Shown here piece by piece: positions 30,337-63,299 of a stretch of DNA of 64,000 nucleotides (position 1 is its first letter; every line of letters begins with the position of its first letter). The stretch is from an uncultured Pelagibacteraceae bacterium. GTDB taxonomy: Bacteria; Pseudomonadota; Alphaproteobacteria; Pelagibacterales; Pelagibacteraceae. The position numbers were made by a program, and so were the translations under genes. The notes beneath the pieces are model-generated. The model ran no database searches and was not told the origin of the DNA. It saw only the letters and a program-made list of their open reading frames with translations. The DNA is taken from the NCBI GenBank assembly GCA_902526115.1, contig CABZJV010000001.1, positions 1 to 64,000 on the forward strand, read 5' to 3'.

Positions 30337-31353
30337 ATGATTAAAACAGATGTATTAATTATTGGAGCTGGACCAACAGGATTATTTTGTGCTCATCAAC
30401 TTGGTATCATTGGATTAAGTTGTGAAATTGTTGATAACTTAGATAAGGTAGGAGGACAATGTATCGAACTTTATCCTGATAAACCAATTTATGATATCCC
30501 AGCAATACCAGAATGCACTGGAGAAGAATTAACAGACAATCTTATAAAACAAATCAAACCATTTAATGTAGATTTTCATTTAAATGAACGTGTAGAAGAA
30601 ATTAAAAAAAAAGACAATCGTTGGTACGTTAAAACTAATAAAAACAAAGATTTTGATGTTGCAAGTATTGTTATTGCAGGTGGCGTTGGATCATTTGAAC
30701 CAAGAAAATTTCCTTTAAAAGATTGCGAAAGATTTGAGGGAAAATCTTTATTTTACTCAATTAAAGATAAAACTATTTTTAAAGATAAAACAATTTCTAT
30801 ATTTGGGGGAGGAGATTCAGCTTTAGACTGGGCTATAGAGCTTTCAGAAACTTCAAATGTAAACCTAATTCATAGAAGAGAAGGATTTAGTGCAGCTGAG
30901 TCGAGTGTTCAAAAAGTTAAGGAACTAAACAAAAAAGGAAATATAAAATTATTTACTGAATACCAGATAGACAAAATTATTGGAGATAAAGAAATTGAAT
31001 TAGTTAAAATTAAACATGATAACGGAGAGATCAAAGAAATTAAATCTGATTATGTTTTGGGCTTTTTTGGTTTAATCATGCAACTTGGTCCTATTTTAGA
31101 ATGGGGATTAAATATTGATAAAAAAAGGGTAGAGGTAAATACAGAAAATTTTGAAACCAATATAAATGGCATATTTGCAATTGGTGATATTTGTTCTTAC
31201 CCAGGTAAATTAAAATTGATACTCTCAGGTTTCCACGAAGGAGCTTTAGCTGCAAGAGGATGTTTTAAATACGCAAAACCAGATGAAAAGTTAAGATTTG
31301 AGTTTACAACCACTTCAAAAGCTGCTCAAGAAAGACTTGGAATTAAAAAATGA
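30337..31353 (+). CDS. Thioredoxin-reductase-like ferredoxin-NADP reductase
   Basis: IIGAGPTGLFCAHQL, VGGQCIELYPDKPIYDIPA, GGGDSALDWA; lacks a TrxB CxxC; typical of type 2 TrxR-like FNR. Confidence 0.9.
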   Translation: MIKTDVLIIGAGPTGLFCAHQLGIIGLSCEIVDNLDKVGGQCIELYPDKPIYDIPAIPECTGEELTDNLIKQIKPFNVDFHLNERVEEIKKKDNRWYVKTNKNKDFDVASIVIAGGVGSFEPRKFPLKDCERFEGKSLFYSIKDKTIFKDKTISIFGGGDSALDWAIELSETSNVNLIHRREGFSAAESSVQKVKELNKKGNIKLFTEYQIDKIIGDKEIELVKIKHDNGEIKEIKSDYVLGFFGLIMQLGPILEWGLNIDKKRVEVNTENFETNINGIFAIGDICSYPGKLKLILSGFHEGALAARGCFKYAKPDEKLRFEFTTTSKAAQERLGIKK

Positions 31354-31979
31354 TTGAACTTTTTTCTTCCGATACTCCAAACGGAAAAAAAATAAGTATC
31401 ATGTTGGAGGAAATAGGATTTGATTATAAAGTTACAAAATTAGATTTATCTAAAGGTGACCAATTTAAACCTGAATTTAAGAAGATAAGTCCTTTTTCAA
31501 AGATACCCGCAATAGTTGATCACCCTAATAATAATCAAGCTGTTTTTGAGTCTGGCGCAATCTTAATTTATTTAGCAGAAAGAAGCGGTAAGTTTTATGA
31601 AAAAGATAATAAACTGAATATTGATCAATGGCTTATGGCTCAAATGGGATCTGTAGGACCTTTCATAGGTCAATATCATTTTTTTTATAAATTCAACAAA
31701 GGCCTAAGTGAAATTGGTGAAAAAAGATATTTTGAAATGACTAAAACTATTTACGGTGTTCTAAACGATCATTTGTCCAAAAATAAATACTTAGCAGGTC
31801 CAAATTATTCAATAGCTGATATTGCGACTTGGCCGTGGATAGCAAGACATGAGTGGCATGATATTGGTCTTAAAAATTATCAAAGTTTATCAAAATGGTA
31901 TTCTGAAATTTCTGACCGTGAGGCTGTTATTAAAGGGTATGCTTTTATGGATGAAAGCGCAGTAATACCTAAACCTTAA
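31350..31979 (+). CDS. Glutathione S-transferase family protein
   Basis: N-terminal thioredoxin-fold (TPNGKKISIMLEE..KIPAIVDH..VFESGAILIYLAE) and C-terminal ADIATWPW helix. Confidence 0.92.
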   Translation: MIELFSSDTPNGKKISIMLEEIGFDYKVTKLDLSKGDQFKPEFKKISPFSKIPAIVDHPNNNQAVFESGAILIYLAERSGKFYEKDNKLNIDQWLMAQMGSVGPFIGQYHFFYKFNKGLSEIGEKRYFEMTKTIYGVLNDHLSKNKYLAGPNYSIADIATWPWIARHEWHDIGLKNYQSLSKWYSEISDREAVIKGYAFMDESAVIPKP

Positions 31980-31982
31980 ATT

Positions 31983-32078
31983 TTAACTTATTAATCTATA
32001 AAAAGAGCTTAGTATTCCGTTTCCAGATAATTCTATAGCAAGAACTATAATGATTATGAGAATTATTTTTTTATTCAT
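31983..32078 (-). CDS. Very small membrane peptide (31 aa), putative
   Basis: MNKKIILIIIIVLAIELSGNGILSSFYRLIS; start ATG overlaps the TGA of the upstream small ORF (ATGA). Confidence 0.5.
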   Translation of the reverse strand: MNKKIILIIIIVLAIELSGNGILSSFYRLIS

Positions 32079-32191
32079 TTAAGAAATAAGTAGAGTAATA
32101 AAATTACCCAAAAGAAAGGGTAGTAAAAATAAATATATTTTTTAGCAAAAAGAAATGAAATTGAATTTCTCTTTGAATTTTTTTTTTTCAT
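32075..32191 (-). CDS. Very small membrane peptide (38 aa), putative
   Basis: MKKKNSKRNSISFLFAKKYIYFYYPFFWVILLLYLFLK; ATG lies 3 nt after the stop codon of the dksA-like gene. Confidence 0.45.
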   Translation of the reverse strand: MKKKNSKRNSISFLFAKKYIYFYYPFFWVILLLYLFLK

Positions 32192-32194
32192 TAT

Positions 32195-32698
32195 TTAGTC
32201 ATCCGCATGAACTTTTTCGTCCTTTTCATGCTTTTCTTGGGCTGCAATAGTATATTTTGCAACTGGTCTAGCCATTAATCTTTTTAATCCAATTGGTTCT
32301 GCAGTATCTAAACAATATCCATACGTGTCATCTCGTATTCTCATTAATGCTTTATCAATTTCTGAAATTAATTTTATCTGTCTATTGATAGCTTTCATTT
32401 CTACATTCTTATCCGTATAAGAACTTGCTTGATCAACAATATCTGCAGAAATGCTATTGTCATCCATACTTCCGTTATAAAGAGCCTCGTTATTGGCTCT
32501 TACTAATTCTTTTTTCCATTCATTAAGTTTAATTCTAAAAAAAACTCTATGTTTTTCACACATGTATTTTTCAGTATCTTTTGGGATATAATTTTTTGAA
32601 ATTTTGATAGGTGCTTTGGCTGCAGCTATTTTTGGTTTGCCTGCAACTTTAGTTTTTGGTTTAGTGACTTTTTTCTTTGCTTTAGCAGTCCTTGGCAT
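32195..32698 (-). CDS. dksA: DksA/TraR-family RNA polymerase-binding protein with Lys/Ala-rich N-terminus
   Basis: RIRDDTYGYCLDTAEPIGLKRLMARPVAKYTIAAQEKHEK is the DksA C-terminal signature with only one zinc-site Cys kept; coiled-coil before it. Confidence 0.88.
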   Translation of the reverse strand: MPRTAKAKKKVTKPKTKVAGKPKIAAAKAPIKISKNYIPKDTEKYMCEKHRVFFRIKLNEWKKELVRANNEALYNGSMDDNSISADIVDQASSYTDKNVEMKAINRQIKLISEIDKALMRIRDDTYGYCLDTAEPIGLKRLMARPVAKYTIAAQEKHEKDEKVHADD

Positions 32699-32775
32699 AG
32701 ATCAATTTTGAAGGTCGGAGTATATTCAGCAAATTATGGGTGTCAAGCAAGCTGAATTGATATAAATATTTATAA

Positions 32776-34098
32776 ATGACGAATAATACCAAAAATATGA
32801 ATAATATTTTTTATATTTTTGTTACAGCTCATCTAATTTTCTGGACTTTGATCCCGTCTCTTACCAATCACAACTTGCCTTTGGACACCATTGAGGCCTT
32901 AGCCTGGGGGAGTAATTTGGATTGGGGGTTTAACAAACACCCACCTATGAGTGCATTTTTTTCTGAAGTTTTTTTTCAAATTTTTGGCTCCCAAGACTGG
33001 GCTTATTACTTGCTTAGTCAAATTTTTGTAGTTATTTCATTTTATTATGTTTTTATACTCTCTAAAGAAATCTTAAATAATAAATTATTAGGCTTAATTT
33101 CAGTTTTATTAATTGAAACTATTTATTTTTATAATTTTACTACTCCAGAATTTAACGTAAACGTTTGCCAATTACCGTTCTGGTCAATTACTACATATTA
33201 TTCATGGAGAATATATAATGGAAAAAACATTAAACTTTCTGACTGTTTATTAGTTGGCCTGTTTGCAGCTTTTGGTTTTTTATCCAAATATTTGTTTCTA
33301 TATCTTTTAATTTCTATTGATTTGCTATTTGTTTATCTAATTTTCATCAAAAAAGATCGAAAGTTTGATTTTAAATATCTGATAACCGCAGAGGTATTTT
33401 TAGTTGTTTTAGTACCTCACTTTATTTGGTTGACTAACAATGAGTTTATAACAATTACTTATGGTCTAGCTAGAACAGGCTTAGAACAATCAAGTCTAAT
33501 AAATCATATTCAATTTCCTTTAATTTTTTTAGGAAAACAAATTGGATTACTAATCCCTTTTTTTATACTAACTTGGTTGTTAGTTCAAAAATTAAAATTA
33601 AAAATCAATTTTAAAGATAAAAAATTACTTTTTTTACTATCCATTAATCTTTTACCAATTTTTTTAATGTTTTTCACTTCAGTTATAACTGGATCAAAAA
33701 TTAGAATGATGTGGATGACACCATTTTATTTATTTTTTGGTACTTTTTTTGTTTATATGCTGCAAACACAAATCAATATCAAAAAATTAAAACCCTTTTA
33801 TTTAGGTTTTATTTTCTTTTTTTTCTTATCGCCAATACTTTATTCTTATGTTTCAATTTCTCAGGATAATAAAAGAACGGATTATCCAGGAAAAGAAATT
33901 GCTCTCAAAACACAATATGCTTGGGAACAACAATTTGATTCAGAAATTAACATAGTATTAGGAAACGAGTGGAACGCTGGCAACTTATCCTATCATCTTA
34001 AATCAAGACCTGTTTGGGAAGGAATTGTGCAAAGAAAAAAACTAGATCAATTGAAAGATTATATGTGTCTTGATAAAATTTGTGTAGGGTCAAGATAG
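32776..34098 (+). CDS. GT39/ArnT-like glycosyltransferase, integral membrane
   Basis: N-terminal DTIEALAWGSNLDWGFNKHPPMSAFF (acidic residue and KHPP motif) and many TM helices. Confidence 0.82.
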   Translation: MTNNTKNMNNIFYIFVTAHLIFWTLIPSLTNHNLPLDTIEALAWGSNLDWGFNKHPPMSAFFSEVFFQIFGSQDWAYYLLSQIFVVISFYYVFILSKEILNNKLLGLISVLLIETIYFYNFTTPEFNVNVCQLPFWSITTYYSWRIYNGKNIKLSDCLLVGLFAAFGFLSKYLFLYLLISIDLLFVYLIFIKKDRKFDFKYLITAEVFLVVLVPHFIWLTNNEFITITYGLARTGLEQSSLINHIQFPLIFLGKQIGLLIPFFILTWLLVQKLKLKINFKDKKLLFLLSINLLPIFLMFFTSVITGSKIRMMWMTPFYLFFGTFFVYMLQTQINIKKLKPFYLGFIFFFFLSPILYSYVSISQDNKRTDYPGKEIALKTQYAWEQQFDSEINIVLGNEWNAGNLSYHLKSRPVWEGIVQRKKLDQLKDYMCLDKICVGSR

Positions 34099-34101
34099 AT
34101 T

Positions 34102-34974
34102 ATGAAAAAATATATAATTTTAATTCCTATTTATAATGACAGAGAGTCTTTAACAATATTAATTGAAAAAATTAATGAGGAGCTAAATAGTGTAAACGCC
34201 GAAGTATCAATTTTAGTAATAAATGATGCCTCATCACAACAAATTGTAGATACTTACTCAAATATAGAAAATATCCATTCCCTAGAAATCATAGATATGA
34301 AACAAAATAGAGGACATGCAAGATGTATTGCTTCAGGATTAAAATATATTTACGAAAAAAAAGAATTTGATTTTGTCATCCCTATGGATGGAGACGGAGA
34401 AGATAGACCTGAAGAAATTAAAAACTTTATTGAACTCTCTGAACAAGTAGGCGAACAATCAATTGTGGGAGAGAGAGTCAAGAGGTCAGAGGGGTTATTT
34501 TTTCAAATATGTTACAAGTTACACAAGTTTTTAACTTTAGCGTTCACAGGCCAATCAATCAATTTTGGAAACTTTACTTGTCTATCAAAATCAACAATTG
34601 AAAAATTATTAAAAGAAAAAGCTACTTGGAGTAGCTTTTCTGGTTCATTAAGAAAAGTAGAAAAAGATTTAGTATCTTCACCCTCTGTTAGAGGAACGAG
34701 ATATTTTGGACCCTCACAAATGAGTTTTTTTAGTTTGTTAAAACACTCCCTTGCAATTATTAGTGTTTACAGAAAAACTGTTTTAATTCGCTCTGCTTTA
34801 TTTATTGTTTTTTATATTTTGCTAATCAAAAGTAATGCTTCTGTAATTACCTCTTTGCCTTTAGTTTTGTTACTAATTATGATTTATTCAATTTCTAGTT
34901 TAGCATTAAGAGAAAATATTGACGAATTTAATAATTCTTTAAAAAATATAAACGACATTGAAAAAATAAAATAA
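34102..34974 (+). CDS. GT2-family glycosyltransferase with C-terminal TM helices
   Basis: IILIPIYNDRESLTILIEKI..VINDASS..RGHARCIASGLKYI..IPMDGDGEDRPEEI. Confidence 0.88.
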   Translation: MKKYIILIPIYNDRESLTILIEKINEELNSVNAEVSILVINDASSQQIVDTYSNIENIHSLEIIDMKQNRGHARCIASGLKYIYEKKEFDFVIPMDGDGEDRPEEIKNFIELSEQVGEQSIVGERVKRSEGLFFQICYKLHKFLTLAFTGQSINFGNFTCLSKSTIEKLLKEKATWSSFSGSLRKVEKDLVSSPSVRGTRYFGPSQMSFFSLLKHSLAIISVYRKTVLIRSALFIVFYILLIKSNASVITSLPLVLLLIMIYSISSLALRENIDEFNNSLKNINDIEKIK

Positions 34975-41882: not shown

Positions 41883-42000
41883 GGGGTTGTATTTTGAGTC
41901 TGTAACTGAATCAAAAGTGAATCAAAAGGTGAACATCTAAACTACATTTTGTATGCTTGTGGATAACTTCAACCAGAGATAGTTTAAAGCAAACAATAAA

Positions 42001-63101: not shown

Positions 63102-63141
63102 TACTCATTGACTTTAATAAATATTTAGTAGAATATTGACT

Positions 63142-63299
63142 TACGGGAGAGATCACAAATAATAGTGACACCGAAGGAGCAACCACCCAGGAAACTCTCA
63201 GGTAAAAGGACCGTAAAATATTAACTCTGGAAAGAGATTTAGTTCTCGCCGAAGGAGCAAAACTCTCAGGCAAATATACAGATGGGTAAGACAGAGTTA
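63142..63299 (+). ncRNA. Tandem glycine riboswitch (two aptamers, about 63142-63215 and 63222-63299)
   Basis: tacgggagagatc..ccgaaggagcaa..aaactctcaggtaaaaggaccgta, then taactctggaaagag..gccgaaggagcaaaactctcaggcaaat..acagagtta; lies directly upstream of gcvT. Confidence 0.95.

Follow-up and report, generated by a model that had tools for sequence, protein, structure and literature searches.

Two overlapping small ORFs behind dksA in Pelagibacter: a probable pair of relocating genes for membrane microproteins

When two very short open reading frames follow one another directly behind a dksA-like gene, as they do in this stretch of Pelagibacteraceae DNA, one would wish to establish whether they are genes at all and, if they are, whether their products work with DksA or with something else. 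The window, by which is meant the whole stretch of 64,000 nucleotides analysed here, has 28% GC and includes genes for proteorhodopsin, ferredoxin and reductase; the Rfam matches within it are to the SAR11_0636 sRNA and the glycine riboswitch (41885-41974 and 63134-63223). The base composition, these genes and the sRNA mark the DNA as belonging to SAR11. A sequence-only reading of this DNA had drawn attention to the two frames (here sORF1 and sORF2), and when the window sequence was re-read their coordinates, lengths, sequences and ATGA overlap all proved to be as that reading had given them. Table 1 collects these and the neighbouring features; sORF2 ends 3 nt from the stop of the GST-family gene that faces it.

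Table 1 Features of the sORF1-sORF2 locus, with positions numbered from the first letter of the window.
Feature	Position	Strand	Remarks
sORF1	32075..32191	minus	38 aa; start 3 nt past dksA stop; predicted helix 11-37
sORF2	31983..32078	minus	31 aa; hydrophobic helix 3-17, break at E-x-S-G-x-G, amphipathic helix 22-30 with R/K (predicted)
ATGA overlap, sORF1 TGA / sORF2 ATG	32075..32078	minus	putative translational coupling
dksA, 167 aa	32195..32698	minus	upstream gene of presumed transcript; stop TAA, ends at 32195
Sigma-70-like promoter match ahead of dksA	32719..32746	minus	11/12 positions; consensus match only
GST-family gene	31350..31979	plus	convergent with sORF2; last in the series of proteorhodopsin, ferredoxin and reductase genes
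PMT_2 and GT2 glycosyltransferase genes	32776..34974	plus	sORF2 lies between their orthologues in a sub-group

The most sceptical view of such a locus would be that it holds chance ORFs, or a conserved RNA that has been taken for genes, and AT-rich sequence does indeed yield many frames of 25-40 aa: as many as 53 ORFs of at least 25 aa were counted in 6.5 kb of 28% GC sequence. Size therefore proves nothing, and the case has to rest on comparison. Among 399 genomes of the genus, most of them incomplete, sORF1 was found in 232 and sORF2 in 279, while for the near-complete genomes of the genus (SAR11) an order-wide search gave 63/76 and 60/76 respectively. Both genes are near-core and usually present as a single copy per genome, and for sORF2 the 80 named matches among those listed all belong to Pelagibacteraceae or Pelagibacterales. 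Both proteins are kept in relatives whose DNA has diverged considerably; differences between the window and most of its closest relatives are mainly synonymous, and changes of length among relatives are of whole codons. The spacing of the two frames is also retained, since in 110 of 111 distinct pairs it is -4 nt (84 pairs, ATGA overlap), -1 nt (15, TAATG overlap) or 0 nt (11, direct abutment), the one remaining pair having -16 nt. In its coding frame sORF1 has a pN/pS of 0.33 and sORF2 one of 0.27, in each case the lowest of the six frames (the other five span 0.53-1.66 and 0.40-2.20, respectively), and dN/dS is approximately 0.24 and 0.20, these values being rough because dS is near saturation. 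Purifying selection in the coding frame, as one would look for in a protein-coding small ORF, was thus found for both.

The kept spacing of the 111 pairs and the six-frame pN/pS values refute the view that chance frames or RNA are involved, and the codon-sized length changes, together with the independent relocation of each reading frame (described below), tell in the same direction, so that its probability may be regarded as negligible. Nor did the relatives show the stops and frameshifts without purifying selection that had been named in advance as the pattern to look for in disproof. One probable frameshift did come to light, in genome G402, whose sORF2 (L132:5818-5925) apparently shifts frame after SGYGF, as would occur in a decaying copy or through an assembly error. 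On the strength of wide conservation, kept spacing and coding-frame selection, then, the proposal that these ORFs are real is upheld, and sequence comparison identifies them as genuine, previously unannotated genes for putative small membrane proteins, selected across most of the genus.

As regards the proteins themselves, sORF1 has some eight Lys/Arg residues ahead of a helix of pattern K-Y-I-x-[FY]-Y-Y-x-[FI]-[FI]-W, the YY-x-x-x-W core of which is present in 102/103 distinct sequences; AlphaFold2 predicts just the one helix (pLDDT 78), and the 19-residue hydropathy is 1.8. In sORF2 the motif E-x-S-G-x-G is present in all 120 distinct sequences, with an Arg or Lys ten residues past the Ser of the motif in 119 of them. 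The AlphaFold2 model (pLDDT 92) has two helices broken at the S-G motif, the C-terminal one having a hydrophobic moment of 0.58-0.78 as against 0.09 for the N-terminal one; the 19-residue hydropathy is 2.6, and the unbroken N-terminal helix is short for a full span. Hydropathy and the predicted helices thus agree with the earlier suggestion of single-span or membrane-anchored small proteins, each having one putative membrane helix in a protein of fewer than about 50 aa. In the sister genus there is a sORF1-like membrane ORF between proteorhodopsin and ferredoxin (L328:10858-10995, L330:527-658, L332:11378-11557), the similarity being weak (E ~0.01-0.03).

Searches for known relatives gave little. 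Neither protein matches Pfam or NCBIfam, and no relatives were found in viral contigs. A search of PDB sequences gave nothing for sORF1 and, for sORF2, only weak matches to xanthan lyase (E 1.9) that are not meaningful; the sORF2 model likewise gave no match when its fold was compared with the PDB, 31 residues being very short for such a search. Literature searches on SAR11 small ORFs or membrane proteins yielded no relevant title or abstract. No fused sORF1-sORF2 form occurs among the sampled copies, and a -1 frameshift joining the two was rejected, as the slippery site, judged by eye, lacks conservation (TCTTAAA in the window; TTTAAAA or TTTGAAA in relatives).

Two classes of known small protein deserve consideration at this point. 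One is the small subunit IV of the aa3-type cytochrome c oxidase (COX4_pro_2, PF07835), for which sORF1 could be proposed as the missing gene: it has the right size and single-span layout, with a Trp near the start of the helix and an alphaproteobacterial setting, and PF07835 has no match in G000 (59% complete) as against a match in 24/57 genomes of the class. However, sORF1 has no Pfam match to this family and the profile similarity (hhalign E ~0.1) is in the same range as that of column-shuffled controls, which leaves the assignment highly improbable. The other class is that of type I toxin peptides (Ibs, TisB and Fst type) or other membrane-depolarising peptides, which are likewise small and hydrophobic, and which both sORF products may be said to resemble also in their Lys-rich start. 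Unlike such toxins, the sORFs are near-core, usually with one copy per genome, and consist of two different proteins stably coupled through an overlap, with an invariant interior Glu and Gly; at the site no Rfam family reaches the gathering threshold, although an RNA of an undescribed kind may be encoded there, and the viral contigs, as already mentioned, gave no relatives. A toxin-like role thus seems very unlikely, if not quite so remote as the oxidase subunit.

Another possibility is that the products are membrane effectors of DksA or of the starvation response, and that such a role is what holds them in the dksA operon. A sigma-70-like site, TTGACA-16-TATACT, precedes dksA (Table 1), whereas further down only 9/12 matches occur, which is the level of shuffled sequence; inside sORF1 there is one weak terminator-like match. 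The strong match ahead of dksA, the 3-nt gap and the overlaps would fit a single transcript with translational re-initiation, and to judge from these sequence features the sORFs of this lineage are probably transcribed from the dksA promoter. In many relatives the last codons of dksA (GATGACTAA) contain the sORF1 start, which is in this way built into the dksA stop region. The DksA-like protein of the window itself scores below the NCBIfam dksA equivalog cut-off and retains only one cysteine of the usual zinc-finger site (YGYCLDTAEPIG...), as do four of five aligned relatives; given this single remaining cysteine, it may be zinc-free.

The sampled copies lie most often between dksA and GST, and dksA is the commonest upstream gene (105/143 rows for sORF1, 100/189 for sORF2), although here it should be borne in mind that what is counted is distinct fetched loci, and that the numbers reflect sampling rather than population frequencies. 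Against a tie to DksA, the same proteins are encoded in many other places. The pair is found after PhyH (three loci), after a TPR-GT9 gene (one) and after carB, in some cases together with a MOSC gene (three). In a large sub-group sORF1 and sORF2 are at separate loci. Across the survey sORF2 occurs alone between PMT and GT2 (L123, L127, L134-L137), after a DctM transporter gene, after a GFO/IDH gene and, at three loci that include the sister genus, between nadA and ygfZ, while sORF1 occurs alone before agmatinase (five loci), after SDR (three) and after ALDH (five). Insertions are seen on either side of the pair, cutting it off from dksA at the three PhyH loci and from GST at another (L251), and dksA is intact in genomes that have neither sORF (L406, L407, L408). 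What survives of the earlier proposal of a dksA-sORF-sORF operon with a starvation link is therefore the translational coupling and the probable sharing of the dksA promoter; the functional tie does not, linkage to dksA being inconsistent across these neighbourhoods and separate loci. In view of these relocations DksA is a carrier rather than a partner, the job of the pair probably having nothing to do with it, and a role as DksA or starvation effectors is correspondingly unlikely.

Some further features of these neighbourhoods may be recorded. The dksA-GST interval (31980-32194 in the window; also L124-L126, L130, L131 and L407) is an insertion hot spot in the genus, with varied cargo genes. 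A MOSC-domain gene lies beside the pair in two unlike settings (four loci), being convergent where it follows dksA and the pair, and upstream where it follows carB, and it may move with the pair. A link to GreA through the carAB neighbourhood was rejected, as the gene in question encodes a MOSC-domain protein.

The best of the specific rivals arises from the same survey, namely that sORF2, perhaps together with sORF1, serves the neighbouring PMT_2 and GT2 polyprenyl-phosphate glycosylation system as a small subunit. Such enzymes have small subunits in eukaryotes (DPM2, DPM3); the sORF2 of a large sub-group is flanked by PMT and GT2 and in many cases runs into the PMT stop (39 distinct rows), and in the window about 0.7 kb separates the pair from the PMT-GT2 genes, which are divergent from it. 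However, PMT and GT2 are also found intact and adjacent with no sORF2 (L138, L406, L412, L413), sORF2 is sited elsewhere in other genomes, and sORF1 is not found at PMT-GT2, so that this proposal too must be rated unlikely, albeit less so than an effector role for DksA.

The pattern of co-occurrence bears on whether the two proteins act together. Both were found in 57 of the 76 near-complete genomes and neither in 10, while three and six had only one or the other, for which a Fisher test gives p = 2e-6, kinship not being corrected for. Low-threshold searches of the genomes that lack the pair found no convincing divergent copies. In two single-contig genomes (L406, L408) dksA abuts GST, PMT is adjacent to GT2 and both sORFs are absent, and in a third (G443, L407) dksA and GST are separated by other genes; absence is less certain in G282, G009 and G492, where contigs end ahead of the sites. 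Nine genomes of the "neither" class could be placed on a tree of acetyl-CoA synthetase, where their distribution requires 8 changes, of which well-supported branches force 4; this implies that joint absence arose several times. There are also clean losses of sORF2 alone, in one lineage that keeps sORF1 (G181, G245), and of sORF1 alone with sORF2 kept (G502, L346), so neither strictly needs the other. Moreover, as the two are usually adjacent and one deletion takes both, the p value overstates the weight of joint loss as evidence that they function together. From the complete genomes without the pair and the clean single losses it follows that the pair is useful but not essential, and that the partners are correlated rather than obligate.

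With selection on a few interior residues and matched translation, the pair most resembles the small proteins that membrane complexes have as accessory subunits or regulators. Known examples of these, such as CydX, AcrZ, KdpF and MgtS, are similarly shorter than 50 aa, with one hydrophobic helix, few selected interior residues and often a position at the end of an operon; they differ in that the sORFs have no fixed partner operon, are two dissimilar proteins coupled together, and lack any Pfam, NCBIfam or PDB sequence match. No fixed neighbouring gene indicates a partner. Overall, the explanation that seems on balance the most probable is that sORF1 and sORF2 are microproteins acting jointly in the Pelagibacter inner membrane, where they most likely serve a larger complex as small accessory subunits or as regulators; their topology, joint action and membership of a complex are points that we infer from the features described above. 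Ribosomes ending dksA would re-initiate on sORF1, and those ending sORF1 on sORF2, a chain that would supply the two in similar amounts. By the positive-inside rule, the Lys-rich tail of sORF1 would lie in the cytoplasm with its aromatic helix anchored in the membrane, while sORF2 would insert its short hydrophobic helix and, past the break at E-x-S-G-x-G, rest its Arg-bearing amphipathic helix against the surface of the membrane, with the invariant Glu and the small residues perhaps forming a docking surface. The genes would ride on whichever operon they land in, dksA being here the carrier.

Put in more general terms, and more tentatively, a membrane module of two proteins, restricted to Pelagibacter and its sister genus, may equip a core machine of the inner membrane, be it for respiration, secretion or transport, with two tiny subunits, its genes moving between operons, staying coupled to the translation of their hosts, and being lost together in several lineages. 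This abundant ocean bacterium has here a near-core pair of putative membrane proteins that match no Pfam or NCBIfam family, and whose genes fall below the usual gene-calling cut-offs even though SAR11 genomes, being streamlined, retain few genes that they could do without. Their repeated relocation suggests, in addition, a way in which tiny genes may survive, namely through coupling to operons that are otherwise unrelated to them.
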